In this document: positions 1 to 63,188 of the stretch, one piece after another
How the letters are laid out: every line of letters starts with the position of its first letter
Numbering within the stretch: the stretch's first letter is position 1
Assembly: GCA_946615865.1 (NCBI GenBank)
Contig: CAMOIJ010000010.1
Span: 1 to 63,551 of the forward strand
Source of the DNA: an uncultured Lachnospiraceae bacterium
GTDB taxonomy: Bacteria > Bacillota > Clostridia > Lachnospirales > Lachnospiraceae
Direction of reading: 5' to 3'
Length of the DNA stretch: 63,551 nt
Translations under genes and position numbers: made by a program
Notes under the pieces: model-generated
Databases searched by the model: none
Told to the model about the DNA's origin: nothing
The model's input: only the letters and a program-made list of their open reading frames with translations

Positions 1-590
1 ACAAGGAAGAGAACCCTGCACTGGGCTTCAGAGCGATCCGCATCTGCCTGACCAGAAAGGAATTCTTCAAGAAACAGCTCAGAGCCCTTCTGCGTGCATC
101 CGCATACGGCAACATGGGCATCATGTTCCCCATGATCATCTCCAAGTGGGAGCTCATGGAAGCTAAGGCTCTCCTCGAGGAGTGCAAGGCTGAGCTCGCT
201 AAGGAAGGCCAGAAGGTCGGCAATTATCAGCTCGGTATCATGATCGAGACTCCTGCTTCTGTCCTTGTAGCTGATGACCTGGCAGAAGAAGTTGATTTCT
301 TCTCCCTTGGCACCAACGACCTCACTCAGTACACCTGCGCGATCGACCGCCAGAACGCGAAGCTGGAGAGATTCTCCGACACGCATCACCCGGCAGTCCT
401 CAAGGCCATCCAGATGACCATCGACGCCGGCCACAGGCACAACACATGGGTAGGCATCTGCGGCGAGCTCGGCGCAGATCCGACTCTGACGGAGACCTTC
501 CTGCGCATGGGCATCGACGAACTCTCCGTCAACGCGAAGTCCGTCCTTCCTCTGCGTAAGATCATCCGCAGCGTAGATCTGAGCAAATAA
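1..590 (+). CDS. ptsI: PTS enzyme I (PEP-protein phosphotransferase), C-terminal part
   Basis: Cytoplasmic enzyme I of the sugar phosphotransferase system; it takes phosphate from PEP and hands it to HPr. Only the last 195 or so residues are present: the frame is open from base 3 and the start lies left of the window. Visible motifs are NPALGFRAIRICL, IMIETPA, FSLGTNDLTQY (the Asn-Asp pair contacts PEP in this family) and GICGELGAD, whose Cys is the family's catalytic acid. The related pyruvate phosphate dikinase shares the fold but normally reads GEHGGDP at the last motif, so enzyme I is the better call. The gene ends at a strong hairpin terminator. A PTS IIB gene lies 0.9 kb downstream on the opposite strand. 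Confidence 0.93.
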   Translation, partial: KEENPALGFRAIRICLTRKEFFKKQLRALLRASAYGNMGIMFPMIISKWELMEAKALLEECKAELAKEGQKVGNYQLGIMIETPASVLVADDLAEEVDFFSLGTNDLTQYTCAIDRQNAKLERFSDTHHPAVLKAIQMTIDAGHRHNTWVGICGELGADPTLTETFLRMGIDELSVNAKSVLPLRKIIRSVDLSK

Positions 591-654: not shown

Positions 655-762
655 GGATCTTGGGGTTGCCGGGGATCTTGGGGTTGTCGGGACACTTGGG
701 GTTGTCGGGGATCTTGGGTTTGTCGGGACTCCTGGGTTTGTTGGGATTCTGCTGGTTTGCGG
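655..762. repeat. 18-bp tandem repeat, six copies (outer part of left arm)
   Basis: Six successive 18-bp units begin at 655, 673, 691, 709, 727 and 745. The clearest copy reads GGATCTTGGGGTTGTCGG; later copies drift. On the minus strand the unit would encode a six-residue Pro-Asn/Asp-Lys repeat, but no ribosome binding site supports translation. Its mirror position beyond the right array (5100-5205) holds a similar C-rich, CAACAAGCC-type tandem repeat. Confidence 0.8.
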
Positions 763-774
763 CGACAAACTTTC

Positions 775-1245
775 CGCCTATTATCGGTTTCGACAAAATT
801 GGATGGTGTGAAAAAGCTTGTTGTGTGCTTGCCCTACATCCATTCTCGGTCTCGACTGAATTCGATGGTGTGTTCATGGCTTGTCGGGCACAAGCTCTAC
901 ATCCGATTTCGGCCTCAACTAAATTCGATGGTGTGTTCATGGCTTGTCGGGCACAAGCTCTACATCCATTTTCGGTCTCGACTGAATTCGATGGTATGAA
1001 AAAAGCTTGCCTGGCACAAACTATACATCCAATTACGCCTTCAGCCATATCCGATGGAGCACCTGTTCAGAAACGCTCAAATTCGCTACATCCATCTGCG
1101 CATTTGACTAAATCCGATGGTGCATCTTCCAGAAACGCTCAAATTCACTACATCCAACTACGCTTTTGGCCATATCCGATGGAGCATCTCTCCAGAAACG
1201 TTTAAATTCACTACATCCATCTGCGCACTCGGCCAAATCCGATGG
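775..1245. repeat. Left array of 63-nt tandem repeat, eight cores
   Basis: Cores of 32 nt lie at about 775-806, 837-868, 900-931, 963-994, 1026-1057, 1089-1120, 1151-1182 and 1214-1245, separated by linkers of 30-31 nt, so the period is 62-63 nt. Each core is an imperfect palindrome with arms CATCSAATTT and AAATTSGATG around about 12 central bases. Linkers fall in two families. Type I (first four) holds a hairpin of the form GCTTGT-CGGGC-ACAAGC. Type II (last three) contains CAGAAACGCTCAAATTC. The linkers at 869-899 and 932-962 are identical, which points to a recent unit duplication. The function is unknown to me. Linkers resemble each other, so this is not a CRISPR array. Confidence 0.9.
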
Positions 1246-1372
1246 AACGCCTGCATATGAAGGACCAAATCTGATGGAACGCCCGCATATGAAGGACCAA
1301 ATCCGATGGAACGCCTGCATATGAAGGCCAAATCCGATGGGGCGCCCGCATAAGAACGACTAAACCCGGTTG
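1246..1372. repeat. 32-bp degenerate tandem units, four copies
   Basis: Directly after the last 63-nt unit, the array continues as four shorter units starting at 1246, 1278, 1310 and 1341. They share AACGCC(T/C)GCATATGAAGG and end in the half-core CCAAATCCGATGG. They look like units that lost the left palindrome arm and most of the linker. This extension has no counterpart at the inner edge of the right array. Confidence 0.8.
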
Positions 1373-1384
1373 AACGCCCGCAAT

Positions 1385-1424
1385 TTAAAAAACTTCCGGC
1401 CCCAGGTATCCCCAGTGCCGGAAG
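1385..1424 (-). terminator. Terminator of the PTS IIB gene (minus strand)
   Basis: Read on the minus strand, the arms CTTCCGGC and GCCGGAAG enclose a 16-base loop and are followed by TTTTTTAAA. It lies 35 bases after the stop codon of the IIB gene. Confidence 0.7.
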
Positions 1425-1458
1425 CAAGACTTCTTACCATCAGTTACAAATCAATTCA

Positions 1459-1755
1459 CTATCTCAGATCAATTTCGCAATTTTCCAAAGCTTCTGTCAT
1501 CTCGACTTGTGCCATGACATTATTGAGCCCGAGAACTACGGTTCCTTTGGCAGCCGCATCCTCAAACATATCAACATAATTGATAGGACACAGCACAATA
1601 TCGTACTGCGCGGCAATTTTTCTGCCCTCCATGATGGAATTGATAGCATCTTCCTCCACCTTGAAACCGCAGATTTCGATCACCTTGTCCAAAGTCATTT
1701 TCATCATGAGCCCGGTGCCATAACCATTTGCGCTGCAAGCTAAAATCTTAGCCAT
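1459..1755 (-). CDS. PTS sugar transporter subunit IIB (ascorbate/lactose-type fold)
   Basis: A 98-residue soluble phosphocarrier. IIB proteins accept phosphate from IIA on a Cys near the N-terminus and pass it to the sugar held by the membrane subunit IIC. Here MAKILAC puts Cys at residue 7, followed by the phosphate loop SANGYGTGLM, as in the small IIB proteins of the ascorbate (Ula/Sga) and related groups. The length is normal for a stand-alone IIB. A GAGGGG stretch about nine bases upstream of the ATG can serve as ribosome binding site. No IIA or IIC gene is in the window, so the sugar cannot be named. Its closeness to ptsI may be chance or a relic of the inversion. Confidence 0.8.
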   Translation of the reverse strand: MAKILACSANGYGTGLMMKMTLDKVIEICGFKVEEDAINSIMEGRKIAAQYDIVLCPINYVDMFEDAAAKGTVVLGLNNVMAQVEMTEALENCEIDLR

Positions 1756-1829
1756 AATTTCTGCCCCTCACCTGTGAAATCATAATGGAACTTTCATTAC
1801 ATTTAATTTTATCTTCTGCGCAGGATTTG

Positions 1830-1933
1830 TCAAATTCAGCTCCCCGGCTTTCAAATTCAGCCAATCGCCAGCCGCGCATCCTCAAATTCAGCTCCCCAGC
1901 TCTCAAATTCAGCCAATCGCCAGCCCGCGCGCC
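1830..1933. repeat. 52-bp tandem repeat, two copies plus part of a third
   Basis: The phrase TCAAATTCAGCTCCCC recurs at 1830 and 1882, with TCAAATTCAGCCAATCGCC in the second half of each unit, so TCAAATTCAG occurs four times. It fills the gap between the IIB gene and the stop codon of the nuclease-like gene. The word CTCAAATTC also occurs in the type II linkers of the flanking arrays. Confidence 0.8.
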
Positions 1934-1934
1934 C

Positions 1935-2729
1935 TCAAAGAAAGTAATGCTTCACCGTATTCTCTATCACGGCGGTACTAATGGGCTGGGATTCGGACTC
2001 GAATGTCAGTATCAGAGTTTCGCCGATGATATAGCCCAGCTTGAGATATCCATTGATCTTGCGCAGGTTACGCTCCACGTAGGCCGGGTCGCCCATTTTC
2101 CCCAGGTGCTCCCAGATGATGGTTCTGCGGTTTTTGATATCGAGGACGAAGAAATCCGGATTTGCAGTTCCATACCCCGGAAGCCGGATCTCGCACTCAA
2201 ATAGGTAATCCACGCCATACCCATACAAAGTGTTGGCGATCAGGACCTCCGACTTAGAGCGCACACGTTCTCCACGTTTGGTGTAAAATTCAGGATCATT
2301 CTCGCCAAAACCGAGCAGGCAGGAGGGCTGTTTGTTCCATCCCTCCCGGAACTCATCATCGGAAGGCCTCACCGGTTCGATCAGAAGCTTCCTCCCCTCA
2401 GGACAATTATCATACGCCCCGTCAATTGCATTTGCTTCGCATGTCTTGATCAACTTGCTTATAAGTTCTTCTTCCTGCCTGGCAAGCCTCAGGACTTTCT
2501 CATCATAGCTCTTCTGCGCCAGCGCAGCCGCGAATTTCCGATTCTTTTTGGGAATATAACTGTAGCGCACGGCTCCCGGCGCTTTCCAATAGTAATCCAA
2601 GGTGTTCTTCCTTCGTCCGTACTTCAGGATTCCGTCCGGCGCTCTTTTGACAGACGCTTCTGCCTTCTTAATGATTTTTCTCAGTTCATTCCTTCTCTTA
2701 CGCAGTTTGTCCAAAAGCAAATACTCCAA
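1935..2729 (-). CDS. Hypothetical protein with PD-(D/E)XK nuclease-like C-terminal domain
   Basis: A 264-residue protein from the chosen start. The N-terminal half is Lys/Arg/Glu-rich and probably helical. The C-terminal half (about 155-262) has RSKSEVLIANTL, then NPDFFVLD, then IIWEHLGKMGD. This Glu, Asp, Glu order is what nuclease-fold (PD-(D/E)XK or Vsr-like) domains show. The usual Lys after the last acid is replaced by His, so catalysis is uncertain. Start choice: TTG at 2729 has AAGGAG five bases upstream, while an in-frame ATG at 2843 has no good ribosome site and adds 38 poorly ordered-looking residues. I cannot name a characterised homologue; the nuclease assignment is inference from motifs. 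Confidence 0.6.
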   Translation of the reverse strand: MEYLLLDKLRKRRNELRKIIKKAEASVKRAPDGILKYGRRKNTLDYYWKAPGAVRYSYIPKKNRKFAAALAQKSYDEKVLRLARQEEELISKLIKTCEANAIDGAYDNCPEGRKLLIEPVRPSDDEFREGWNKQPSCLLGFGENDPEFYTKRGERVRSKSEVLIANTLYGYGVDYLFECEIRLPGYGTANPDFFVLDIKNRRTIIWEHLGKMGDPAYVERNLRKINGYLKLGYIIGETLILTFESESQPISTAVIENTVKHYFL

Positions 2730-2959
2730 TGCCGCTCCTTTCCGGGCCACCGGCCCTGTTCGGCCAAAACATAGACCGGCGCAGCGCTCCCGCTCATCGG
2801 CCGCCGAAATGCTGCCAGTCAGCCATAGCAGAAAAAGAGACATGCCCCGTCGTATGAATCAGCCATTTTCAGTTTCTGATTTGTTGGGATACTATTCACC
2901 GTCCATTCAGACCGCGGGCGGCGAACAACCAGATAGAACTCTGGATTTGAACATCTTTT

Positions 2960-2988
2960 ATTATAGGAGCAGTTGGAGGTGTTTGCAA
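2960..2988 (-). promoter_or_regulatory. Candidate promoter for the nuclease-like gene (minus strand)
   Basis: On the minus strand TTGCAA (2988-2983) and TATAAT (2965-2960) are separated by exactly 17 bases. It would give a 5' leader of about 220 bases to the TTG start at 2729. It overlaps the end of the murG terminator, which fits an independent transcription unit. Confidence 0.5.
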
Positions 2989-3024
2989 ACAAAGAAATCC
3001 CGCCCTGACAGAGCAGGACGGGAT
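2985..3024 (-). terminator. Terminator of murG (minus strand)
   Basis: Read on the minus strand, ATCCCGTCCTG pairs with CAGGGCGGGAT around a six-base loop and is followed by TTCTTTGTTT. One G-T pair interrupts the 11-bp stem. It begins 28 bases after the murG stop codon. Confidence 0.8.
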
Positions 3025-3052
3025 AAATTCTTCATAGTTGCCCGGCAGGCGC

Positions 3053-4129
3053 TCACTTCTGCACTTCTTCCAGAAGGCCCATGATGATCGGGATCGCGTC
3101 GGTCTGGTGACTTGATTTGATGGCCTCGGTATATTTTGCCCGGTTCTCGTAGAGGGCGGTGACTTTGGCGACGATCTGGTCTGTGGCCTTTTCATCCTCG
3201 AGGACTTCGCTGAAGCCCTGCTCCGCGAAGGAGTTCGCATTGAGGATCTGGTCGCCGCGGCTGCCTTTGGTGGGCAGGGGAATGAGCAGGCTGGGCTTGC
3301 CGAGAGCGAGGATCTCGCAGATCGCGTTGGCGCCCGCGCGGGAAACCAGCAGGTCGGCCGCCGCAAAGAGGTGTTTGAGGTCGTCCTTGACGTACTCGAA
3401 TTGGCAGTAGCCCTCGACGTCCTTCAGATTCTCGTCAAAATGGCCTTTGCCGCACAGATGCACGATCTGGAAAGTCTCGAGCAGCTCGGGCAGGTTGCCG
3501 CGCACTGCGCTGTTGACGGAGACGGAGCCCTGGCTGCCGCCCATGATCATGAGCACGGGCTTGTCCGCAGTGAAGCCGCAGATCTCCAGGCCGCGCGCCT
3601 TGTCGCCGGTGAAGAGCTCGCCGCGGATGGGGGTGCCTGTGAGGACTGCTTTGCCCTTGGGGAGCATTTCCAGCGTCTCAGGGAAGTTGCAGCAGATCTT
3701 CTTGGCCGCGCGGAAGCAGAGCTTGTTGGCCAGGCCCGGCGTCATGTCGGACTCGTGGATCACGCACGGAATGTGGAGCGAACCCGCCGCGCGCACTACC
3801 GGCACGCTGACAAAGCCGCCCTTGGAGAAGACGACGTCCGGTCTGTATTTTTTGAGGAATTTGCGGGCCTCCCGGTAGCCGTTGATCACGCGGAAGGGAT
3901 CCGTGAAATTCTTCACGTCAAAATATCGTCTCAGCTTTCCCGTCGAGATCCCCACATAGGGCAGCCCGAAATCGGCGATCAGATTCTTCTCGATCCCCTT
4001 CTTGGATCCGATATAAGTGACCTCATAACCCGCTTCCTGCAGATAAGGCAGGAGCGCAATATTGGGCGAAACATGGCCGGCAGTCCCGCCGCCGGTCAGA
4101 ACGATTTTCTTCTTGGGTGTGTTTTCCAT
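3053..4129 (-). CDS. murG: UDP-GlcNAc:undecaprenyl-pyrophosphoryl-MurNAc-pentapeptide GlcNAc transferase
   Basis: MurG makes lipid II from lipid I on the inner face of the membrane, the last cytoplasmic step of peptidoglycan precursor synthesis. The 358 residues match the usual length. The N-terminus has the family signature GGTAGHVSPNIAL, then GGFVSVP and HESDMTPGLAN. The C-terminal domain has MIMGGSQGS, the nucleotide-sugar segment SRAGANAICEIL and LIPLPTKGSRGDQ. GGAGGAAACC precedes the ATG. It is normally in the mra/dcw cluster or solitary; here it sits between an orphan nuclease-like gene and a TSCPD gene inside the block bounded by mirrored repeats. If that block inverts, an essential gene would change strand and perhaps promoter context. 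Confidence 0.96.
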   Translation of the reverse strand: MENTPKKKIVLTGGGTAGHVSPNIALLPYLQEAGYEVTYIGSKKGIEKNLIADFGLPYVGISTGKLRRYFDVKNFTDPFRVINGYREARKFLKKYRPDVVFSKGGFVSVPVVRAAGSLHIPCVIHESDMTPGLANKLCFRAAKKICCNFPETLEMLPKGKAVLTGTPIRGELFTGDKARGLEICGFTADKPVLMIMGGSQGSVSVNSAVRGNLPELLETFQIVHLCGKGHFDENLKDVEGYCQFEYVKDDLKHLFAAADLLVSRAGANAICEILALGKPSLLIPLPTKGSRGDQILNANSFAEQGFSEVLEDEKATDQIVAKVTALYENRAKYTEAIKSSHQTDAIPIIMGLLEEVQK

Positions 4130-4237
4130 GGTTTCCTCCGTGCTGATGCGCTTTGTTGCGAGCGAATGTCTGTTTGGCGGGCGCCTGGCTTGCCTTCTGG
4201 CAGTGGCGTTTCGCCTGCCTCCCGGCGCGGGCCCTGC

Positions 4238-4483
4238 TTACTGCCCGATGGCCTGTTTAAGTGCCTTGGAAAGCTGGTCGGGACATGAAGTGTTCTTAAA
4301 GCCGCAGCGGATCCCTTCGATCTTGGGGATAACGTCCTCTGCGCGCTGGCCGATCACAAGCTTGCTGATTCCCTGAAGGTTGCCGTTGCAGCCGCCGGTG
4401 AAATGAACATCCTGGATTACGTGATTTTCATCCAGTGTAAGGTTGATCATTGTGGAACATGTTCCTCTGGTTCTATATTGCAT
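4238..4483 (-). CDS. TSCPD domain-containing protein (TIGR03905-type)
   Basis: An 81-residue protein of the small TSCPD family that occurs as single-domain proteins in many Clostridia. The sequence has the ordered segments FTGGCNGNLQGI, GIRCGFKNTSCPDQL and four to five Cys, including the TSCPD motif that names the family. The same domain is found at the C-terminus of some B12-dependent ribonucleotide reductases, where it may bind metal; the role of the free form is unknown. AGGAG lies seven bases upstream of the ATG. It is upstream of murG on the same strand with a 108-base gap, so the two could be cotranscribed. Confidence 0.85.
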   Translation of the reverse strand: MQYRTRGTCSTMINLTLDENHVIQDVHFTGGCNGNLQGISKLVIGQRAEDVIPKIEGIRCGFKNTSCPDQLSKALKQAIGQ

Positions 4484-4608
4484 GATAGTTCTCCTTATGA
4501 TTTGTTGTTTGTTGTTCGCGGAATTTTGGTGAATCCCGTCTATAGTCTAAACTATTCTAGCAGAAGAGGAAGAAATTATCTACTGGAAGTGGTGGGGTGA
4601 TGGGCACT

Positions 4609-5080
4609 CCATCGGATTTGGTCGAGAGCGTAAATGGATGTATTGAATTTGAGCGCGTCTGAGCAGATGCACCATCGGATTTGGCTGAGAGCTTAGATGG
4701 ATGTATTGAAATTGAGCGTTTCTGAAAAGTGTACCATCGAATTTAGATGAGAGCGAAAAAGGATGTATTGAATTTGAGCGTTTCTGAACAGACATACCAT
4801 CGGATATGGCTGAGACCGAAATTGGATGTATAGCTTATGCCGAGCAAGCTTTTTCTATACCATCGGATTTAGTCGAGGCCGGAATTGGATGTATAGCTTG
4901 TGCCAGACAAGCCATCGACATACCATCGGATTTGGTCGAGATCGAAATTGGATGTATAGTAAGTGCCAGGCAAGCATTTTTCACACCATCGAATTTTGTC
5001 GAAACCGATAAAAGATGGAAAGTTTGTTGCAACAAACCAGATGCACACCATCGGATTCAGTGAAAGCCAAGAATAGATGG
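4609..5080. repeat. Right array of 63-nt tandem repeat, eight cores, inverted relative to the left array
   Basis: Cores lie at 4609-4640, 4672-4703, 4734-4765, 4797-4828, 4860-4891, 4923-4954, 4986-5018 and 5048-5080. They read as the reverse complement of the left array (start CCATCGGATTT, end TTGGATG). Linkers come in the mirrored order: three type II (with GAATTTGAGCGTTTCTGA) on the inner side, then type I (such as GCTTGTGCCAGACAAGC). The core at 4797 matches the left core at 1026, both holding GGATATGGCTGA, and the outermost linkers also match. The arms are therefore collinear as an inverted repeat and differ by about one unit in copy number. Confidence 0.9.
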
Positions 5081-5120
5081 AAAGCAAATGCCAGCCAATG
5101 GCAAGTTGGAGAAGCCACTT

Positions 5121-5182
5121 AAGCTCAACAAGCCACTCAGGCCCCCCAACCAAGCTCAACAAGCCACTCAGGCCCCCCAACC
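5121..5182. repeat. 31-bp perfect tandem repeat, two copies
   Basis: Two identical 31-bp copies (5121-5151 and 5152-5182) start with AAGCTCAACAAGCC and end with GGCCCCCCAACC, followed by a degenerate partial copy. They are the right-hand counterpart of the 18-bp G-rich repeats at 655-762, seen in reverse complement. Confidence 0.85.
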
Positions 5183-5258
5183 ATGCCCAACAAGCCCCCC
5201 AACCTCCACTTCTCCATCCCCGCAATCTATAAATCCATCCCGCATTTTAAGACTGCTA

Positions 5259-5335: not shown

Positions 5336-6748
5336 ATGCGCAAGACAAAGATCATCTGCACGATCGGCCCTGCCAGCGAGAGCGAGGAGATGCTCAGGAA
5401 ACTGATCGCAGCAGGCATGAATGTAGCGAGATTCAATTTTTCACACGGGACACATGAAGAGCACGAGGCCAAGTTCCGCAGGGTCGTGCGCCTTCGCCGC
5501 GAACTGGGCGTGCCGGTGGCGACGCTGCTGGATACCAAGGGACCGGAGATCCGCCTGCGCGATTTTGAGGGTGGGAAAGTAGTGCTCGAGAAGGGACAGA
5601 CTTTCACGCTGACGACAGAAGAAGTAATGGGCACCAGCGAGAAAGCGTCAGTCACTTATAAGGATCTGCCGATGGATGTGAGTGTTGGCGGCATGGTTCT
5701 GATCGACGACGGCCTGATCGGGCTGCGCGTGGATTCCAAGACAGATACTGATGTGGTCTGCACGGTCATCAATGGAGGCCCGGTATCCAACCACAAGGGC
5801 GTGAACCTGCCCGGCGCCGATCTGTCGATGCCTTTTATCAGCAAGCAGGACCGCTCCGATATCGAGTTCGGATGCAGGATGGGATATGATTTTATCGCGG
5901 CTTCTTTCACCCGTACAGCGAAGGACGTCAACGAGATCCGCGAGATCCTCAATGCCAACAACAGCCGCATGAAGATCATTGCCAAAATAGAGTCCGTCCA
6001 GGGTGTCAACAATATTGAGGAAATCCTGGAGGCAGCGGATGGCGTAATGGTAGCGCGTGGTGACCTCGGCGTGGAAGTGCCGCTTGAGGAAGTGCCTGTC
6101 ATCCAGAAGCACATCATCAAGAGAGCTGTCCAGCTGGGCAAGATCGTTGTCACAGCGACTCAGATGCTCGATTCCATGATGAAGAATCCCCGTCCCACAA
6201 GAGCAGAGGCGACCGACGTCGCGAACGCGATCTATGACGGAACGACTGCGATCATGCTCTCCGGCGAGACGGCGGCAGGCAGCTATCCCGAGGAAGCGGT
6301 CAGGACCATGGCGACCATCGCGGAGCGCGCTGAGAAGGATATCCACTATAAACAGCGCATGAAGCTGCTTGAAGACGATAAGACTGATATCACGACTGCG
6401 ATCTCCCACGCTACCTGCACAGTGGCTGAGGACATCGGAGCCAAAGCGATCATCACAGTCACGATCTCCGGATTTACGGCGAATCGTCTCTCCAGATATA
6501 AACCCACCTGCCCGATCATTGCGTGCACCATCAGCGAGTCTGTAGCATGCCAGATGAACGTGCTCTTTGACGTCTATCCGCTCAACATTCCTCAGGAGGA
6601 CAGAGAGGAGATGCTCTTTGATGCAGCGGTTGACGCAGCCAAGAAGGCCGGTTATGTGGAGAAGGGAGACAACATCGTCCTGACAGCAGGCGTACCGCTG
6701 GGCGTTGCCGGCAACACGAACATGACAAGAGTGATCGAAGTGTGGTAA
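5336..6748 (+). CDS. pyk: Pyruvate kinase
   Basis: Cytoplasmic glycolytic enzyme converting PEP and ADP to pyruvate and ATP. The 470-residue length is the short bacterial form without the extra C-terminal PEP-utiliser domain found in Bacillus. Motifs run in order: ICTIGPASES, RFNFSHGTHEEH, DTKGPEIRLR, the active-site segment IIAKIESVQGVNN, MVARGDLGVEVP, TATQMLDSM with RPTRAEATDVANAI, and the C-terminal regulatory domain. GGAGGA precedes the ATG. The last 27 bases are duplicated just downstream, next to the start of gmk. Confidence 0.97.
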   Translation: MRKTKIICTIGPASESEEMLRKLIAAGMNVARFNFSHGTHEEHEAKFRRVVRLRRELGVPVATLLDTKGPEIRLRDFEGGKVVLEKGQTFTLTTEEVMGTSEKASVTYKDLPMDVSVGGMVLIDDGLIGLRVDSKTDTDVVCTVINGGPVSNHKGVNLPGADLSMPFISKQDRSDIEFGCRMGYDFIAASFTRTAKDVNEIREILNANNSRMKIIAKIESVQGVNNIEEILEAADGVMVARGDLGVEVPLEEVPVIQKHIIKRAVQLGKIVVTATQMLDSMMKNPRPTRAEATDVANAIYDGTTAIMLSGETAAGSYPEEAVRTMATIAERAEKDIHYKQRMKLLEDDKTDITTAISHATCTVAEDIGAKAIITVTISGFTANRLSRYKPTCPIIACTISESVACQMNVLFDVYPLNIPQEDREEMLFDAAVDAAKKAGYVEKGDNIVLTAGVPLGVAGNTNMTRVIEVW

Positions 6749-9894: not shown

Positions 9895-10663
9895 CGACAG
9901 GATCCCGGAATCGCAGTTAGTGCGCCCCGGGGAGAAAGTCGACGACCTTCAGCGAAGCGGGCTGAGGATCATTCAGGATCCGGCGAGATTCTGCTTTGGC
10001 ATGGATGCGGTGCTTCTCACCGGGTTCATTCAGGAAGGGATCGGCGGACGCTCCATGGCGCGCGAAGATATGCTGGATCTGGGTACCGGCACGGGGATCA
10101 TTCCGCTGCTCATGTCGGCCAAATCGGACCTGCGGACGCTGACTGGCCTGGAGATCCAGCCGGACAGCGCCGATATGGCGAGAAGGAGTGTACAGCTCAA
10201 CGGGATTGGGGACAGAGTCCGGATCCTGCAGGGAGATATCAGAGAGGCAGATACGCTTTTTGCGCCTGCCTCTTTTGGCATTGTGACCAGCAATCCGCCC
10301 TATATGATCGGCGGGCATGGCCTTCAGAATCCGGACAGCCCCAAGGCGATCGCGAGACACGAGGTCCTGTGCGATTTTGACGACGTGGCGAGGGCGGCGG
10401 AGAAGCTGCTCAAGACGAGCGGCCATTTCTATCTCGTGCACAGGCCCTTCAGGCTTGCCGAGATCATGACGACCCTGCGGGACCACGGCCTCGAGCCCAA
10501 GCGGATGCGCCTTGTCTACCCCTTTGTCGACAGGGAGCCCAACATGGTCCTTTTGGACTGCGTGCGCGGCGGCCGGCCCCGGCTGACGGTGGAGAAGCCG
10601 CTGATCGTCTATAAAGAGCCCGGCAAGTACACGGACGAGATCTACGAGGTGTACGGCTACTAG
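9884..10663 (+). CDS. trmN6: tRNA1(Val) (adenine37-N6)-methyltransferase
   Basis: SAM-dependent methyltransferase expected to methylate N6 of adenine 37 in a tRNA. The 259-residue protein has the SAM loop LDLGTGTGIIPLL and the catalytic N6-adenine motif NPPY (VTSNPPYMIGG). The C-terminal half shows PFRLAEIM and EPNMVLLD, typical of the TrmN6/YfiC family. The start is the ATG at 9884, with GGAG ten bases upstream, inside the end of ricT. rsmI follows after 17 bases, so these genes are probably translated from one mRNA. Confidence 0.93.
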   Translation: MHSDDRIPESQLVRPGEKVDDLQRSGLRIIQDPARFCFGMDAVLLTGFIQEGIGGRSMAREDMLDLGTGTGIIPLLMSAKSDLRTLTGLEIQPDSADMARRSVQLNGIGDRVRILQGDIREADTLFAPASFGIVTSNPPYMIGGHGLQNPDSPKAIARHEVLCDFDDVARAAEKLLKTSGHFYLVHRPFRLAEIMTTLRDHGLEPKRMRLVYPFVDREPNMVLLDCVRGGRPRLTVEKPLIVYKEPGKYTDEIYEVYGY

Positions 10664-10680
10664 AATACAGGAGCAAAACA

Positions 10681-11583
10681 GTGAAAGAGACGGATAAATC
10701 ATTAATCATAAACAGCGAAGCGGAGCCGGAAAACCGCATCTGCGCGGAGCCCGGAACCCTCTATCTCTGCGCCACGCCCATCGGCAATCTGGGCGACATC
10801 ACGGAGCGCGCGCTGCGCACACTGGAGTCGGTGGACCTGATCGCGGCGGAAGACACCCGCAACACACTGCGCCTTCTCAATCACTTCGGGATCAAAAAGC
10901 CGCTCACCAGCTATCACGAATATAATAAGTACACAAAGGCCGAAGAGCTGATCACCAAACTGCATCGCGGCGCCAGTATCGCGGTCGTGACGGACGCAGG
11001 GACACCCGCGATTTCCGATCCCGGCGAAGTGATCGCCGCTATGTGCCTCGAGCAGGGAATCCGGGTGACTTCACTGCCCGGCGCCTGCGCCCTGATCACT
11101 GCTCTGACCATGTCCGGGATGCCCGCCAGAAGATTCTGCTTTGAGGGATTTCTGCCGGGGGACAAGAAGGAGAGAAGGTATATTTTGACACAGCTGCAGA
11201 GAGAGGAGCGCACGACGATCCTCTATGAGGCGCCCCATCACCTGCGGGGGACGCTGCAGGAACTGTATGAGGCCCTGGGCGACAGGAAGATCACCCTCTG
11301 CCGGGAGCTGACCAAGAAATTCGAAGAGGCTTTGCCGATGACCTTGGCTTCCGCAAACGTATATTATAATGAGAACGAGCCGCGCGGGGAGTACGTGTTA
11401 GTCCTGGAGGGGGCCAGCCGGGCGCAGCTTGAAGAGAAAAAAAGGAAGTCTTTCGAGGAGATGACGCTGGAGGAGCACATGGCGCTGTATACAGACCAGG
11501 GGCTCAGCCGCAAGGAAGCCATGAAGAAAGTGGCGGCGGACCGCGGCGTGTCCAAGAGGGATATTTATAAGGAATTGCTGTGA
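10681..11583 (+). CDS. rsmI: 16S rRNA (cytidine1402-2'-O)-methyltransferase
   Basis: RsmI methylates the 2'-OH of C1402 in the decoding centre of 16S rRNA. The 300-residue protein starts at GTG with AGGAGC upstream. It has a tetrapyrrole-methylase fold: LYLCATPIGNLGDIT, LIAAEDTRNTLRLLNHFGI, VVTDAGTPAISDPG, LPGACALITAL and GFLPGDKKER, then ILYEAPHHL and LCRELTKKFEE, and the C-terminal helical domain ending SKRDIYKELL. It is the last gene of the housekeeping run. No strong terminator is seen after it. Confidence 0.96.
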   Translation: MKETDKSLIINSEAEPENRICAEPGTLYLCATPIGNLGDITERALRTLESVDLIAAEDTRNTLRLLNHFGIKKPLTSYHEYNKYTKAEELITKLHRGASIAVVTDAGTPAISDPGEVIAAMCLEQGIRVTSLPGACALITALTMSGMPARRFCFEGFLPGDKKERRYILTQLQREERTTILYEAPHHLRGTLQELYEALGDRKITLCRELTKKFEEALPMTLASANVYYNENEPRGEYVLVLEGASRAQLEEKKRKSFEEMTLEEHMALYTDQGLSRKEAMKKVAADRGVSKRDIYKELL

Positions 11584-11769: not shown

Positions 11770-11806
11770 CGTTTTTTTGACCAACTGGATTATTAAAGGA
11801 ATAAAC

Positions 11807-14800
11807 ATGGAATTTTTGCGCAGGCTGATCGCGAAGATCATGAATGAACACAGAAGACTTAGACGTTTTTACAGAGTTGTCTCTGTATTGGCGTGTATTG
11901 TCGTGTTCGTAACTACTTACGCGATGATCCTGCCTGCGATCACTCTTGAGAGCGGGACTGCGCGCTCCATGCCCGGCATAAGCTGGCTCGCCTCTGATAC
12001 AGATCTGTATACGACCGGCGTGCCAAGCGCAGAGGTTGCGAACGAGGAGGAGCCCGAGCCTGAGAGCACAGAAGCAGAGACGACGGAAGAAGCAAATCCC
12101 GACGACAGTGCCGCGCAGGAAGAGCTCTCTGCGTCTGAAGAAGGCAAAAATGAACCTGCCGAGTCTGAAGAAGGCGAAAATGAGCCCGCAGCAACTATGG
12201 CGACCACAGCCCAGGTTGCGCTCGTAGAAGAGCCCGAACTGATCACGGAGGACACCGTACTCACTGCGAGCGGCAGCGATTACACGGTTTACGTAACAGT
12301 GACCGCGAAGTCACTGCTTCCCCAAGACACAAAGCTCGAAGTCCGCGAGATCACCGAGGAGAGCGACCCCGATGAGTACCGCAAGTACTACGAGAAGGCT
12401 CAGGAAGAGCTCCGGAACCAGTATGACGACAAAACAAATCTGTCTTTTGCCAGATTTTACGATATCAGTTTCACATCCGGCGGTGTCAAAATAGAGCCCG
12501 CCGACACCGTAACCGTCCGCATCGAGTACGACAGCGCGGTGAAGATGGATGCCAACGCGTCCGTTGACACAATTCACTTTGACGAGAAGAAGGCGGAACA
12601 GCCCGAGCTGATCGAGTCCGAGATGAAGATGGAGGACGGCCAGAAGGTCAGGACCAAGTCCAGTGATGAAGCGGGCGAGCACAATGTCGCAAAGGAAAGC
12701 GCGGCTGACGGCAATGCTGTGCATGTCAGCGAGGTCGAGTTTGAATCCGGGAGCTTTTCCGTTTACGGAATCGTCGGAACGACCATCGAAGAGGTCGTGC
12801 TGGCCAGCGACGGCAACAATTACGAGATCTCTGCCACTTACGGCAGCGACACAGGCATCCCTGTGGATGCCAGACTTGAGATCGAAGAGATCACCGAGGA
12901 TTCTGAGGGCTACGCCGATTACGTCGCCCGGACAGAGAGCGCCCTCGGTATGGAAGAAGGCGCCGCGAGCTACATCCGCATGTTTGACATCAAGATCGTG
13001 GATCCTGATGACAGCAGCGTCAGATACCAGCCCGCAGACGGCACAACTGTAGATATGAAGATCGAGCTGGCTGACGCGAAGAGCGAAGGCCTCAGTGTTG
13101 TGCACTTCGCGGACGACAGCGATGAAGGTGATATAGTCGATAATACAACGGAGAGTGGGGAGAATGGACCGGTCGTGGCGTTTGCGGCGGATGGGTTCTC
13201 GGTGTATGTGGTGGCGGATCACGAAGACGGAGAGATCATAACTCCGCGTGTGACCTTCCACTTTATCGGAGAAGATTACACAGAAGATGTCAGCAGTTCA
13301 GGATATACCTACAGTGCTGCACCGTACGAGTTCGTAAATAAAAACGGTGAATATCAAACTACGCAGATCCTCAAGAACGGCGAAGGCCTTGAGATGATCG
13401 CCAATCCGAGAAACAAGGAGGACAGCGTCTTTTACGGATGGTATGTGGTGAATTCTGATTCTGCACCGGATGACGCCCCTATTGTCTACACCTGGACAGA
13501 GAATCCTGCACAGGTTCTCTTTGAGACCCCGGTCGAGATATCTTTTGACGGAACTACGGTGAACTGGACCCTGGGAGAGGCCTCCGGAAGCGGAACCGTG
13601 GATGAGGACGGATGCACACATGTTTACCTTGCACCGATCTATGAAGATTATTATTTCGTGAATTTCCACCTTGGTCCCATTGATGACCCCGGACTGGCGG
13701 GCAGCCTTATGACCCGCAAAATGATCGTTCTTGGCAGCGACGGAGAAGCGGAGATCCGGATCGGCAACGTGCAGGCGCCGAGCCCTGATGCCGTACACAA
13801 GATCTTTACAGGCTGGCAGACTGCTAAACCCGGTGAAGATGGGTTGATGCCAGACGTTAGTTACATAACACTGGATCTCGAAGGCAACGAGATCAACCAT
13901 CCGGATGGAAAGACCGGATATTATATTACAGCAACAGAAAAAAAGGACATCGACCTGTACCCCGTGTTCGCAGAAGCGCGCTGGGTCTATTTCCACACGG
14001 GTAAAAGCGGAAATAATGCCACTTACGTCGGGGCAAAATATCTCCTTACGAGCGATGATATCGTAGAAGACGAAGAGAATCCTTACTATTTTGACTCACT
14101 GCCCGTGAGCCAGAGAAACGGTTATAGCTTTGAAGGCTGGTTTACCGAAGAGGATAGTGAGGAGAACGGGACCGGCGATATGATCGCGGATCCGGAAGGA
14201 AATCTTGTCAATAGTTATGTTAAATATGACACTGACGGAACGACGAAGCTGTATGAGATCGTTGACGGAAAACTGTATTTCTACAAGGCGATGGAGGATC
14301 TGCACCTCTATGCGAAGTGGGTGGAAGTGCCGGATACATCGTATTCGGTGATCATCTGGAAGCAGAAGGTGACGGACGATGTGGACGCATATTCTCAGGA
14401 AGAATATGACGCATGGGTCGCCTTGAAAAAGGCTGAAAATCCGAGCATTACAGAGGCAGAACTGAGAGCGGCAGCTGAGGCGGCGGGTATTACAGTTAAA
14501 GATTATGATTTCGAAGCCTATGACACGGTAGATGGCTACTCAGGAAAAACTCTGGACGAACTTGATCTGAGTACTTATCAGAATAATTCATACGAAGGGT
14601 TCCACTATGGAACAACGACTATGAGCACGGAGACCGTAAAAGGTGACGGCACGACAGTCGTCAATGTGTATTATGACCGCAATGTGCATACGCTTCGTTT
14701 CTATGACAGTGGCAGAGGGTATACATATACAGCTACAACAAGTGATACAGGCACTCAATATGGGTTTGTGGACGGTGAACCGGTTCTGTTGACGAGAAAG

Positions 14801-17800
14801 TCAACGGATGAAAAGACAGTTTGGTATTTCCAGTATGTGTATACTGCGAATAATCGGGGAGATTATAGAATATATAGTGACACAAATACTTATGTTTCCA
14901 GATGGAATGCTTCAGGTCAGAGGTATAGCCGATCTAACGGCAATTCAACAAATAATGTTTACACCGGAACCAGATACACGAGAAGCGGAACCAGTTACAC
15001 AAATTACAGCTACACCCAGACAGAATCCGAATCCGGAGACCAATTCGGAATTGACGGCAACGGCGCGTATGTCGAATTAGCTAAGGAAACAATCGGTACG
15101 TACATTTGGACATATGAAGATTCCAACGGCGTAACACGTGAATATACCGGAACAAGGTACACAAGGAGCAATAACCAATCGACAGGTACGAATGTTCTTG
15201 TTTATGCAATTTCCGCTCTTTACGGCCAAAACATCGGCAATATATTCCCGATCGTAGGAACCAACGGGACGACATATGACAGTGGCGAGAGATGGGATCC
15301 TCAAGACAGCGATATATATGACGAAGTACTGGTATTTCTTGACGCTATGCCGGACGAAGATATCAAGTTTAATGTGAATACCTCGTCAAATGGCCTTAAA
15401 ACATTGACATATTATGTCGAGGTACTTCCGGGAGATACCGTAGAGCAGGTAAGAAACGGAGTAAGTTATAAGACATATCATGTAACAAATGCAAGATATG
15501 GTTACTTTACTGAATCAGAAGACTTTTTTGATATTACCGGCTATACAAAGAAGGAGTCAAATCCGGTATTCGTAAATGGCGAAGCCAGAAATACCAACAC
15601 GATCGATCTGTATTACACCCGCAACTCCTACACCCTCACCTTCGACTCCAACTACCCTTTGGACAAGGTGATCTATTTTGACGGCGAGCAGTGGGATCAG
15701 ACCTACGATTCAACGATCGTAGAAAACGAAGAACACACACTGCTGTACGAGACACCGCTCAGCAGCTACAGCAGCACCGGCGATGATTATTGGGAGCCGA
15801 AGACACCGGATCACTATACCTTTGGCGGCTGGTATGAGGACGCCACCTGCACAGTGCCCTTCAATTTCAACAGTACTATGCCTTCGGCCAACAAGGTGAT
15901 CTACGCCAAGTGGGTGCCGGTCAGTTACCGAGTGCATATCAATCCTAATGGAGCGGAGATCGACCACATCGACCATGCCGGAGACCCCACTTTCAGGCCC
16001 GGTACGACGCACCATGAAGATAAGGCCACTTACATCAACGCCGATTATGGCACGACGATCGCCGAGTACACGCTGACCCGCGATTATGTGCCGATCTCAG
16101 ACGCAGTCGCGGCGACGATGGATGAGGACGATGTTTATTACTATATTTACACCAAATACTATGAAGACACTGGAAGAGGCCTTCCGGCTGACCTGCGAAA
16201 TGCGCTTTATGTGACAGAGGACGAGCTGGACGATTATTACGATTACTATGTGGCCCTCATCAATGTTAAAAAAGCGGAAGACCCGGAGCGTTACGGCGAA
16301 GTGACCATCCTTGGTCCCGCGGCATGGCGCAATGCATATGTGTCCACTCAGAAATATCGCCAGAAGTACCCCAATGAGACCTATGTGTTCCTGGGGTGGT
16401 ATAAAGACGACGAAACGATGCCTTACAACTTCTCCGATCCGGTGGATGAGTCCTTCACACTGACGGCTCATTGGAGACTGGACGGCGGCTATACTGTCAT
16501 GTACATGCCGGAGTACACGATGCCCGACGGCACACTGATCAACGGTAATATTGATACCTGGCAGGATCCGGGGGCCGGCGCCACATACGCTGACCAGGCG
16601 ACGACGACGATCCAGCAGCAGCCGACTGATCTGACGGCAAATGGAACGGCAGTCGATGACGATTCTTATATCTTCCGTGGCTGGCAGGTCGTTACTGTCG
16701 GCGGAACAGTGGATGATCCGACTTACACGCCTCTCGAAGAGGGCGTCTATTACCAGGAAGGTGATGAATTTGTAATTGAGGCAAAATATGCCAACGAGAG
16801 CGGTCTCATTTATCTCCAGGCTGTCTATGAGGCCAAGGAGTCTTCCTACCGCAGACCTGAGATCGCGAATCTGACACTGGATGCAAATACCGGTTATATC
16901 ACCACTGACGGCGAGACTGAACTGGATACAGATCAAAATCTTGATCAGCTGGGCGATGTAGGAACAGTGGCACTGGATGCGGGCGCAGATGAGATCATCT
17001 TCGGCGATATCCAGAGCAATATTGCAGTCCATGTGGAGGATTATGCGGTCAATCCCAATTACTTCAAACATCCGAACGGGTATTTCCTGTTAGGATTTGA
17101 CGATGAACCTGATGAAAAAGACTATGTTGCAACCTACGCGGCAGACAGCATCATCTCCGTTCAGCGAACTGACGAGGAGACGATCTATGCGGTGTGGGAG
17201 CCGATGGTCTACATCAATTTTGTAAATGATACGGGCATAGGTGATGTGATCTTCAACCTGAGCTCTACTGAGGATACAGCATTATATGTTGTAAATGCAG
17301 CAGAGGGAACTTATGAAAGAGTGCCGATCAGGGATCTGACAAATATTAAAGTGCCGAAGGGAGAGACCCTGAGACTTGCGATCCCGAGGGGCGCAGAAGA
17401 AGGGATCACGATCAGCGGCACCAATACATTGGGAGCCGGACAGGTGCTGGTCTGGAATTCCAAGGTGACAATTGATGACAATACCTATGACACAGCGGAT
17501 GGAAGCACGACAAGCTATACGCATACCGTGGACGGTGACACCCATAACCATTCGCTGGCGAAAGGTCAGTCGGAAAATAATGAGGCGTTCTCATTTGATG
17601 AGACACTCATTGTGAATGAACAAGGTTTAACGGTGACTTTTACCTCCCTCCAGCATGACCGGACGCTTGTGCTGCATGACAATTATCGTGATAACACGCA
17701 GGAGATCTATTTTGCTAATCCACTTACAACCGGTGGATATGATCTCCCTACGCCGAGCACACGTCTTGGCTATGAGTTTATCGGCTGGGATACGGAACAG

Positions 17801-25750: not shown

Positions 25751-27064
25751 ATGATGAATAAATTTTTGAACAATCCCGCCTTTGAAGGGATCGAACCGTT
25801 TGAATCCAAGTTGTGGCTGTCGTCTCCCACGATGCACGGCGACGAGCAGAAATGGGTGGACGAGGCGATCCAGACGAACTGGGTCTCTACTGTTGGGAAG
25901 AATATAGATGAAGTTGAGCAGCAGATCGCTGAGTATGTAGGCGTGAAGTACGCGGTCGGCCTTTCCTGCGGCACATCCGCGCTGCATATGGCCACTAAGC
26001 TCGCGGGAGAGAAACTGTACGGACAGGCGAAGCCCAATCAGGGCACGCTGCAGGGACACAAGGTTTTCTGCTCGGATTGCACTTTTGACGCCAGCATCAA
26101 TCCCGTCGCTTATGAGGACGGCGAGGCGGTCTTTATCGACACGGAGTACGACACCTGGAACATGAGCCCGGAGGCGCTGGAGAAGGCCTTCGAGATCTAC
26201 CCGGACGTCAAACTAGTCATCATCGCTCACTTGTATGGCACGCCCGGCAGGATGCAGGAGATCAAGGAGATCTGCGACAGGCACGGCGCGCTGATCGTGG
26301 AGGACGCGGCCGAATCCCTGGGGGCGAAATACAGATTGAACGGCCAGTGGGTCGAGACCGGAACACTGGGCGATTATAACGCGATCAGCTTCAACGGCAA
26401 CAAGATCATCACCGGATCTGCCGGCGGAATGTTCCTGACCAACAGCCAGGAAGACGCGGAGAAGGTCCGCAAGTGGTCCACGCAGAGCCGCGAGGACGCT
26501 CCCTGGTACCAGCACGAGGAGATCGGCTACAACTACCGCATGAGCAACATCATCGCCGGCGTGATCAGAGGCCAGATCCCATATCTGGACGAGCACATCG
26601 CGCAGAAGAAGGCGATCTGGGAGAGATATGAGAAGGGGCTTGATGATCTGCCGATCAGCATGAACCCCTGGGACAGGAAGAACGCGCAGCCCAATTTCTG
26701 GCTCAGCTGCATGCTGATCGACGAGTACGCTATGGCGCCCGCGGTCAGAGGAGAGAAGGACTATCTCTACAAGAGCATGAGCGGAAAGAGCTCCCCTCAC
26801 GAGATCCTTGAAGCGCTGGCTGCTTTTAACGCCGAGGGACGCCCGATCTGGAAGCCGATGCACTTGCAGCCGATCTACAGGATGAATCCTTTTATCACTG
26901 TAGAGGGCAACGGACGCGCGCGCAGCAACGCCTATATCGCAGGCGGCGGGATCGACGTCGGCGCCGATATCTTCAGGCGCGGACTCTGCCTGCCCTCGGA
27001 CAACAAGATGACGCCCGAGCAGCAGGATATCGTCATCGACATCATCCACAGGTGCTTTAAGTGA
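25751..27064 (+). CDS. DegT/DnrJ/EryC1/StrS family sugar aminotransferase
   Basis: PLP-dependent aminotransferase that adds an amino group to a nucleotide-linked 4-keto sugar. The 437-residue protein has SCGTSALHMATKLAG (PLP phosphate contacts), VEDAAESLGAKY and the Schiff-base lysine in SFNGNKIITG at about residue 218. A second ATG lies three bases in; GGAGG precedes both. It is the first gene after the near-consensus promoter. Together with the CapD/PglF-type dehydratase at 40.5 kb it could form UDP-4-amino-4,6-dideoxy-GlcNAc (bacillosamine precursor) or the galacto isomer AATGal. Which sugar is made cannot be told from the sequence. Confidence 0.9.
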   Translation: MMNKFLNNPAFEGIEPFESKLWLSSPTMHGDEQKWVDEAIQTNWVSTVGKNIDEVEQQIAEYVGVKYAVGLSCGTSALHMATKLAGEKLYGQAKPNQGTLQGHKVFCSDCTFDASINPVAYEDGEAVFIDTEYDTWNMSPEALEKAFEIYPDVKLVIIAHLYGTPGRMQEIKEICDRHGALIVEDAAESLGAKYRLNGQWVETGTLGDYNAISFNGNKIITGSAGGMFLTNSQEDAEKVRKWSTQSREDAPWYQHEEIGYNYRMSNIIAGVIRGQIPYLDEHIAQKKAIWERYEKGLDDLPISMNPWDRKNAQPNFWLSCMLIDEYAMAPAVRGEKDYLYKSMSGKSSPHEILEALAAFNAEGRPIWKPMHLQPIYRMNPFITVEGNGRARSNAYIAGGGIDVGADIFRRGLCLPSDNKMTPEQQDIVIDIIHRCFK

Positions 27065-27101
27065 CGCGGCGGCTTGCTGAGCGGCATAGAAATCGGAGAA
27101 T

Positions 27102-28010
27102 ATGAAATCTTATAAAGACTTGATGAATTCCCTCACTGACGACGACATCCTTCGCCAGATGACGGATGAAGAAATAAAAGAGCTCAGGGGCGTTTTCCTG
27201 CAGACTTACATAGATCTCGCGGACTGCTGCAAACGGAACGGCCTCACAGTCATGCTGCTGGGAGGCTCGTGCCTTGGAGCTGTGCGCCACAAGGGTTTTA
27301 TTCCCTGGGACGATGACCTGGACGTTGCTATGCCCAGGAAGGATTTTGACCGGCTCAAGGAGATCTTTGACCGGGAACTGGGGGACAAGTATATTTTGTC
27401 CTCTCCGAATTATAAGGGAAACGCCAAGAACCGCTTCCCCATGATGCTCGTAAAGGACACCATGATGATCGAGGCGGGCGACAACCCGGAGGAGGAGACC
27501 AACAAGATCAAGATCGACTTCTTCATGCTGGAGAATATTCCCGAGAACGCGGTCGTAAGGACCCTTAAGGGGCTCTGGTGCACGGCTCTCATGTTCATGG
27601 CCAGTTATGAGGAGACTTACGAGAAGAACGACGAGTACCTCAGACGCTACATGTGCAAGACGCCGGAGGGAGAGCGCGAGTACAAGAGGAGAATGTTCCT
27701 GGGAAGATTCTTCTCTTTCAATAAATTCCAGAAATGGGCGGACATCGTGGACAAGGCCTTCCAGTATCCCAGGGAGACAAGACTTCTGGGGATCCCGTCG
27801 GGGCGCAAGCACTATTTTGGCGAGATCCTGCCCAGAGAGGCCTATGTGCCGGTCTCCAAGGGCGAGTTTGAGGGTATGACTGTGGATCTGCCCGGCAATA
27901 CGGACATGTACCTGTCCAATCTCTACGGAGACGACTACATGACGCTCCCGCCCGTGGAAAAGAGGGAGCGGCATCTGATCATGGACGTCGTGTTCGCGCC
28001 AAAAAAGTGA
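27102..28010 (+). CDS. licD: LicD family phosphotransferase (1)
   Basis: LicD proteins move phosphocholine from CDP-choline to a sugar of a surface glycan; the wider family also handles other phospho-substituents. The 302-residue protein has the signature LLGGSCLGAVRHKGFIPWD with the metal-binding DDDLDVAM, and IDFFMLENIP further on. The C-terminal half is variable. It sits 37 bases after the aminotransferase gene. Choline transport, kinase and cytidylyltransferase genes are present further down the cluster, so phosphocholine is the likely cargo. Confidence 0.9.
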   Translation: MKSYKDLMNSLTDDDILRQMTDEEIKELRGVFLQTYIDLADCCKRNGLTVMLLGGSCLGAVRHKGFIPWDDDLDVAMPRKDFDRLKEIFDRELGDKYILSSPNYKGNAKNRFPMMLVKDTMMIEAGDNPEEETNKIKIDFFMLENIPENAVVRTLKGLWCTALMFMASYEETYEKNDEYLRRYMCKTPEGEREYKRRMFLGRFFSFNKFQKWADIVDKAFQYPRETRLLGIPSGRKHYFGEILPREAYVPVSKGEFEGMTVDLPGNTDMYLSNLYGDDYMTLPPVEKRERHLIMDVVFAPKK

Positions 28011-28089
28011 GCGATTCCGGTTATGGACGCCCTGTGCAGGCGCAAAAATGTTCCGCACATATACAGACTCTTAAGGAGACAGCCAAGTT

Positions 28090-30486: not shown

Positions 30487-30499
30487 AAGAAGGTAAGAA

Positions 30500-37352: not shown

Positions 37353-37839
37353 TATGCAGTTTTCTGTATGAGGCATATACCTTTGTCAGAACCCTTTATT
37401 CTATTGAATCCGGAATTTTTAAAAAAATATGCATAATATACAGAATTTTCCTGGCTTATGCAGGATATATGCATAAACTATGGGGATCGATATTTTGATT
37501 ATTTAAGCAGGGAGGCTCTCCGAGGGCTCAGGGCGCTGCCCTGAGAACCCGCAAGGGACCAGTCCCTTGACCCTTTGCCCGGGCGCTGCCCGGACCCGTC
37601 CTCGCCGGAAGCAGGAAAGGAGCAGGGCTCCTTTCCGGGACAAGAGGATGATCCGTGAAGCTTATGTCAAGGGACTTTCGCGGCATATCCTCACAGGCGG
37701 CTCCGCCTGTCCCGACAGGTGGCTCCGCAGATGCGCGAAGACGGCTCCGCCTGCTGTTCCGGTATTCCACGGTTCCCCTGACAACGCTTCCGCTCCTCGG
37801 CTGCGATGAGTTTATGCAAAAAATATGCAACGTTATGCA
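37353..37839. other. Cluster of TATGCA words flanking the hairpin array
   Basis: TATGCA occurs at 37353, 37428, 37457, 37468, 37813, 37824 and 37834. Two of these are extended palindromes TATGCATA. They form one group left and one group right of the hairpin cluster at 37527-37710. The density is well above what random sequence would give in 490 bases, so a repeated protein-binding site is possible. Confidence 0.5.
37527..37710. repeat. Run of five short perfect hairpins in an intergenic GC-rich island
   Basis: Perfect stems of 6-8 bp follow one another: CTCAGGGC-GCT-GCCCTGAG (37527-37545), CAAGGGAC-CA-GTCCCTTG (37552-37569), CCGGGC-GCT-GCCCGG (37579-37593), GGAAAGGA and TCCTTTCC (37614-37636), and ACAGGCGG-CT-CCGCCTGT (37693-37710). 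No coding frame is convincing across them. The flanks are AT-rich. This kind of hairpin-rich island resembles dispersed palindromic repeats of Clostridia. The remaining bases to 38036 show no gene. Confidence 0.75.
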
Positions 37840-38036
37840 GGAAGAGAGAATTTTCGTAAAGATTTTCGAATAAAGGGTTTTTCATAAGGGCATATACGAA
37901 ACTTGAGAGTGAATATTCTGAATAATTTGTGTATATTAGGGGATTCGTGAGGCGATAGGAAAGCGCGGCGGACCAGAAGGTGAGAAGAAAGCGCGAGCGG
38001 ATAATAAGACAGTGAGACAGCAAGGAGGCACAGCAG

Positions 38037-63176: not shown

Positions 63177-63188
63177 CGGCGCAAACAC

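Follow-up and report, generated by a model that had tools for sequence, protein, structure and literature searches.

The window, by which we mean the whole stretch of 63,551 nucleotides that was analyzed, stems from an uncultured Lachnospiraceae bacterium (genome G000) and carries murG and three further genes between two arrays of short repeats, with ptsI on one side and pyk on the other (Table 1). By open reading frame and Pfam analysis the four enclosed genes lie on the minus strand, just as the original prediction had it. The accompanying statement that all neighbours up to 61 kb are on the plus strand holds for ORFs with a Pfam match, the first of which on the minus strand past the block is found at 61306-62748, but our survey of 42 mechanically picked ORFs of the window also returned long minus-strand ORFs without a Pfam match at 9917-10702, 27057-28058, 30431-31369 and 37833-39785. 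Within the left array, three linker-A units on the PTS_IIB side are followed by linker-B units and a weakly matching terminal unit (762-806). The 18-nt G-rich tandem behind ptsI is also present in the related genome G003.

Table 1. Genes and repeats at the murG locus (positions in the window).
Feature	Position	Strand	Basis or remark
ptsI, 3' part (PEP-utilizers_C)	114..590	+	Pfam
18-nt G-rich tandem past the ptsI terminator	655..745	+	repeat separate from the array units
Left array, units of 62-63 nt	762..1245	-	array sense is minus
Half-unit repeats of 31-32 nt, 5' end of left array	1233..1382	-	
PTS_IIB protein	1459..1755	-	Pfam
ORF without Pfam match	1935..2843	-	shared with G041 and G043 (IIB-murG interval)
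murG (Glyco_transf_28 N and C domains)	3053..4129	-	Pfam
TSCPD-domain protein	4238..4483	-	Pfam
Right array, units of 62-63 nt	4609..5098	+	array sense is plus; unit 1 starts at 4609
31-nt C-rich tandem, 3' of right array	5121..5196	+	
pyk (pyruvate kinase)	5336..6748	+	Pfam

The repeat unit of the family is 62-64 nt long and contains the inverted and well-kept 4-mers CATC and GATG at a distance of 27-28 nt, together with linkers of two main classes. Unit finding in several of our scans requires CATC by design, and the counts for units picked by their linker are the fairer ones. Among 121 units picked by linker B alone, GATG stood just upstream in 112 and the distance from CATC to GATG was 27-28 nt in 102; sites picked by CATC had GATG at +27/28 in 261 of 284 cases. 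When the 3' partners were slid, the paired cells fell from 75% to at most 47%. Spacings were 62-64 nt in 200 of the 215 that lie between 45 and 80 nt. The bases after GATG are variable, and the mean column identity of the units is 66% (46 units), with linkers in recurring classes. Alignment A1 comprises 46 of 98 distinct units, chosen by hand, and its count of CATC and GATG (183 of 184 cells) is partly built in. A CRISPR array was rejected, as near-identical repeats with unique spacers were not seen.

The two arrays of the window do form a mirror pair, as had been claimed, with two linker classes whose order and orientation are reversed between the sides. Positions 837-1251 and 4603-5017 are inverted arms of 415 nt that are 79% complementary without a gap, and the array cores align locally with a score of 406, whereas none of 100 mononucleotide shuffles scored above a maximum of 28. 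The further claim that the outer G/C-rich repeats correspond was not borne out: their best local score is 19 (shuffle mean 18.7, sd 3.6, 500 shuffles), and they differ in kind, the left one being an 18-nt and the right one a 31-nt tandem. Identity between the left array (L) and the right array (R) is 77%, and comparison with two other arrays, s19 and C59, gave 80% for L and C59, 78% for R and s19, and 85% for s19 and C59. L and R are not each other's closest relatives; other arrays match each of them about as closely as they match each other. A paired origin of L and R, for instance by a staggered-break duplication, was rejected because they resemble one another no more than other arrays do.

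We searched for the unit (62-64 nt) with a sequence profile, R1. As 150 candidates were scored in each genome, the unit counts are lower bounds. R1 found at least 101 units in 24 places of G000, 20 of which hold two or more units, and at least 43 units in G003, and returned zero units in 32 other relatives (23, among the 150 candidates scored per genome, and 9 more). A pattern scan yielded 21 stretches, 19 of them in four Lachnospiraceae metagenome-assembled genomes (MAGs), one of which is apparently G003; single pattern matches in other phyla (L153, L166) were taken as chance, as R1 gave a single half match of 16 bits in L153 and nothing in L166. The array-bearing set found so far consists of five closely related uncultured Lachnospiraceae genomes, the MAGs G000, G003, G041, G042 and G043. 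A phage or plasmid origin was rejected as far as searched, the pattern being absent from viral contigs and blastn giving no match among phages or plasmids. Among open-access titles and abstract openings, no publication on this family came up. The arrays represent a mosaic repeat family that is new, restricted to one clade and similar to bacterial interspersed mosaic elements (BIMEs), which are built of REP palindromes; the mirror arrays of the window are two of about two dozen dispersed intergenic copies rather than a private pair. From the 24 places in G000, 16 arrays at 14 loci (counting the window) were viewed against crude ORF picks: all lie between ORFs, and 12 lie between co-directional genes, seven in the sense of these genes and five against it. 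These arrays follow no rule of direction relative to genes.

Between genomes, array orientation was kept in 30 of 30 comparisons at 14 sites, out of 32 rows of which two had no matched array (the first array of L024 in L154, and L031 versus L158, the latter beyond the distance limit). The first array of L024 has no counterpart in L154, and this array and the one of L031 both match L165. One G000 array is absent from the corresponding site of G041. Over the greater part of their flanks L025 and L104 are 97.6-97.8% identical, with 90.6% in one 1-kb stretch adjoining the array, but the array pieces are only about 77% identical, and in G041 units at two different loci are 92-98% alike. Array content turns over, and similar units are common to different loci of one genome.

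We consider it probable, at about 0.75, that a dispersed BIME-like mosaic repeat family explains the mirror arrays and that the murG block does not act as a switch. Copies of entire arrays and of individual units would have entered many gaps between genes, in either orientation. This orientation would be fixed for each site, as it is at the sites compared, and units would be gained, lost and traded between arrays; unequal exchange and gene conversion would be the simplest route, as the sharing of units suggests. The mirror layout at murG would then stem from two insertions, one at either end of an operon whose direction was already opposite to that of ptsI. No enzyme that copies array units was identified. 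As to function, conserved and evenly spaced sites that lack clear covariation would agree somewhat better with a protein binding to double-stranded DNA than with an RNA or hairpin.

A tentative alternative, to which we assign a clearly minor share, is that the arrays are binding sites for some architectural or regulatory protein, spaced by whole turns (63 bp being six turns) and kept by selection. The retention of GATG and of its distance to CATC in linker-B-picked units, the fixed position of GATG in CATC-picked sites and the narrow range of spacings all speak for it, as do several odd spacings (52-54, 71-74) near whole turns. Helical phasing is only weakly supported, however: in the phase test a period of 9.5 nt scored 0.71 and thus higher than 10.5 nt with 0.65, double spacings from missed units included. 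The array missing from its site in a relative likewise argues against such sites. The indel control is weak: a length difference of no more than 1 nt was seen in 0.82 of random unit pairs, versus 0.51-0.63 expected, with only lengths being compared and random-pair gap counts inflated by permissive penalties. In a broader form that we hold to be slightly less likely again, clade-specific phased 63-bp (six-turn) inverted-site arrays at operon boundaries would be bound by some nucleoid or regulatory protein and homogenised by inter-locus exchange, and may once have guided inversion of the murG block.

It appears doubtful that the arrays are genuine REP/BIME elements mobilised by a REP-associated tyrosine transposase (RAYT). 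In PMC2817692, BIMEs are described as intergenic inverted-repeat units in tandem mosaics with linker classes, and the arrays resemble them in their imperfectly palindromic, intergenic unit of high copy number (about 100 found) and in the way motifs alternate with classed linkers in tandem mosaics. Y1_Tnp genes are present in G000 as well, three in number, and the frame of one is open over 276 aa. However, a scan by R1 and motif over a few kb around each of these candidate RAYT loci in the 88% complete assembly found units beside none of the three, and no cognate RAYT flanked by palindromes; open frames over 200 aa occur in Y1_Tnp genes of array-free relatives too. There is no fixed GTAG/GGAG-type tag at the foot of the stem, nor clear covariation.

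We regard it as quite unlikely that the arrays act as long inverted repeats between which homologous recombination inverts the murG block, reversibly or occasionally. The inverted arms are present, but an identity of 79% across 415 nt makes them a poor substrate for such recombination, which counts against this. The block with both arrays occurs in three genomes, and G041 and G043 retain the orientation seen in the window (3/3); the G003 and G042 assemblies gave no murG match, and the count thus refers to the other three array-bearing genomes. The G003 contigs that carry ptsI and pyk each stop no more than about 250 bases from the respective gene, and the sequence there is unlike that of the window. 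The constant orientation in the 30 array comparisons points the same way, and Pfam recognised no recombinase domain in the block (PTS_IIB, MurG, TSCPD and one ORF without match), which is flanked by ptsI and pyk.

The genome G023, sister to the array clade in the MurG tree, does favour inversion: ptsI, TSCPD, murG, PTS-IIA, PTS-IIB and pyk all lie on one strand, the block is flipped with respect to the window, and the breakpoints fall in the two gaps that hold the arrays in the window. Yet R1 found no array in G023; an array-mediated flip followed by array loss in that lineage is possible. Twelve array-free relatives carry murG and ptsI on a single contig, and in 11 of them (G001, G004, G005, G008, G009, G010, G011, G013, G017, G018, G022) the two genes are on opposite strands, as in the window; G023 is the sole exception. 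Relative to pyk, murG is opposite in five array-free relatives (G004, G008, G010, G011, G014) and in the same direction in five (G012, G015, G018, G019, G023). This variation lends inversion some support; it also indicates that rearrangements here are not rare and leaves the ancestral state on the pyk side uncertain. In the orientation comparison proposed for ptsI, murG and pyk, the relatives are nearly uniform on the ptsI side and mixed on the pyk side. Of the past or ongoing inversion envisaged in the original prediction, a block inverted between lineages is retained, its tie to the arrays is not, and an ongoing murG switch gains no support from the array-bearing genomes or from the relatives.

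Least probable, and rejected, is a role of the arrays as attenuators or as structured RNAs that are transcribed. Three array folds were somewhat more stable than those of shuffles (z -2.2 to -2.7), and of seven units folded singly two showed a strong excess (z -3.2, -3.6), but the covariation score of 0.125 versus 0.110 for shuffles was reached in 32 of 500 shuffles, four of five pairing measures were at shuffle level, Rfam gave no match at arrays in the stretches searched, and the 16 arrays viewed follow no direction rule.

The dispersed repeat family that we favour implies that where long mirror arrays enclose an essential gene, they can represent a pair of insertions of such a family and not a switch. 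It further provides a BIME-like family in Lachnospiraceae for which no units were found by a Y1-type transposase gene, and whose turnover and sharing between loci can be traced across five close genomes. Like invertible DNA switches, the murG block is flanked by long inverted arms; unlike them, it has no recognised recombinase domain and a single orientation in the three array-bearing genomes compared, and arrays also stand alone elsewhere. With VNTRs or minisatellites the arrays share tandem units, copy-number turnover and local homogenisation, but here the unit family occupies about two dozen places, with similar units common to different loci. The likeness is to BIMEs in the intergenic position, the number of inverted-repeat units, the classed linkers in tandem mosaics, the narrow host range and a length that differs between relatives. 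What sets the arrays apart from BIMEs, beyond the lack of units beside a Y1_Tnp/RAYT-type gene, of a fixed tag and of clear stem covariation, is a very regular period of 62-64 nt and an internal order that is common to several arrays.

The mirror-oriented pair of arrays with 62-63 nt units described in the original prediction is present in the window: the longest ungapped inverted pair between the arrays reaches 79% over 415 nt, and their core alignment scores 406, as compared to at most 28 in 100 shuffles. As was also stated there, all genes between the arrays (PTS_IIB, an ORF without Pfam match, murG and a TSCPD protein) are on the minus strand, while the flanking genes, pyk and ptsI (3' end), are on the plus strand. 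The alleged correspondence of the outer repeats was not borne out, as an 18-nt and a 31-nt tandem match no better than shuffles. The pair is also not singled out by closeness, since its 77% identity is equalled by other array pairs (left array with C59 80%, right array with s19 78%, s19 with C59 85%), and the unit order from linker A to linker B is common to five arrays, both window arrays, C25, C59 and C8. With a probability of roughly three in four, the two belong to a dispersed mosaic repeat family, mirror-oriented at the operon ends, with the direction of the operon relative to ptsI seemingly predating them.

A BLAST search with the right array gave 18 matches in its own genome, G000. R1, a sequence-only profile built on 46 typed units, detected at least 101 units there (a lower bound, from 150 scored candidates) in 24 places grouped by hand from the match list, 20 of which hold two or more. 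Among 24 relatives searched alongside (E 0.001) only G003 matched, and none of nine further genomes of the genus did (E 0.01), a search that contained no positive, with the identical model detecting units in G000 and G003. When GTDB contigs were scanned for the unit pattern, 21 stretches came up, 19 of them in four Lachnospiraceae MAGs, RUG13037, UBA6998, RUG12657 and RUG14002 (the RUG series being presumably of rumen origin); two single matches in other phyla received no support from R1. The unit pattern had no match in viral contigs, nor did the right array in phages or plasmids.

Orientation in relatives, by which the original prediction was to be judged, is mostly window-like on the ptsI side even without arrays, but evenly divided on the pyk side. 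Twelve array-free relatives carry ptsI and murG on one contig, and in 11 the two genes lie on opposite strands (G001, G004, G005, G008, G009, G010, G011, G013, G017, G018 and G022, with strands in G009 and G011 read from coordinates), G023 being the exception. Where pyk and murG share a contig in array-free genomes, they are opposed in G004, G008, G010, G011 and G014 and on the same strand in G012, G015, G018, G019 and G023, which slightly lowers our confidence in the overall reading given above. Thus the opposed arrangement of murG and ptsI looks ancestral, and the pattern is most simply explained by one inversion along the G023 branch; on the pyk side, the genus has seen repeated rearrangement. 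In G023 the block is flipped, ptsI, TSCPD, murG, PTS-IIA, PTS-IIB and pyk all being on one strand; the stretch upstream of the TSCPD gene that in the window leads up to the right array is conserved there, and a search for arrays found none. The MurG tree, a single-gene tree with several inner forks open, places G023 as sister to the three array-bearing genomes having MurG (98/97). It is possible that arrays mediated this flip and were lost afterwards; inversion breakpoints and arrays both sit at operon boundaries, so that their coincidence is not surprising. Unlike the window, G023 has a PTS-IIA gene between murG and IIB.

These comparisons lend no support to an invertible murG switch, as array orientation is kept in 30 of 30 between-genome comparisons at 14 sites (two further rows matched no array), and G041 (RUG13037) and G043 (RUG12657) retain the block with an array at either end in the window orientation.

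Among 121 units picked through linker B alone, GATG stands at most 10 nt upstream of the linker in 112, and a CATC..GATG pair, 27-28 nt apart, occurs in 102. In an alignment of hand-chosen units 75.4% of cells are paired and at most 47.1% once the partners are slid, so that the inverted symmetry is real. Shuffling hardly changed the paired share (74.8%), four of five pairing measures stayed at shuffle level, and the covariation score was 0.125 versus 0.110, with 32 of 500 shuffles reaching 0.125. Whole arrays fold slightly better than shuffles, single units (n=7) strongly in two cases and not in five. Sixteen arrays lie between co-directional (12), convergent (2) or divergent (2) genes; by eye, from crude ORF picks, seven of the 12 run in gene sense and five against. 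Such mixed directions favour an element acting at the DNA level over a transcript-borne role. Spacing is regular, with 200 of the 215 spacings in the 45-80 nt range measuring 62-64 nt; indel-constraint and helical-phase tests gave weak results.

Flanks of the stretches L025 and L104 are 97.6-97.8% identical across 6 kb, with one array-adjoining 1-kb stretch at 90.6% and the array pieces themselves at ~77%, whereas the arrays of L026 and L101 are almost unchanged. G041 has units at 92-98% common to its TSCPD-pyk and s22 arrays, and four pairs of loci in G000 share units at 92-95%. For 284 units from unevenly sampled loci, the nearest relative belonged to a different genome in 138 cases at the orthologous site and in 52 at some other site, and to the unit's own genome in 54 cases within the same array and in 40 at a different locus. 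Descent in place is thus the most frequent course, and exchange is indicated for a smaller share of units. In G003, a 63-nt array belonging to a divergent subfamily (L110) occupies a site at which the window has no array, and the two sites have no clean empty junction in common. Further unrelated short tandem repeats adjoin G003 arrays on L105, L103 and L101, such that these intergenic gaps collect several kinds of repeat.

Coordinates of individual features in the window and in compared genomes
Feature	Location	Remark
52-nt tandem	window 1785-1939	between PTS_IIB and ORF without Pfam match
ORF, 2836 aa	window 11777-20287	apparently surface-protein-like, hydrophobic C-terminal anchor (impression from translation)
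Site of the G003 L110 array	window 62871-62969	
86-nt tandem repeats	window 62871-63185	
G000 array	L024:4132-4361	no counterpart in G041
RRXRR + HNH gene with HEARO RNA (RF02033)	G023 L073:4832-6395	between PTS_IIB and pyk; we take the gene to be IscB-like

Bacterial interspersed mosaic elements (BIMEs; PMC2817692) are the nearest known kind; although a flanking RAYT gene and a fixed tag were not found here, the array family resembles BIMEs in layout and turnover.
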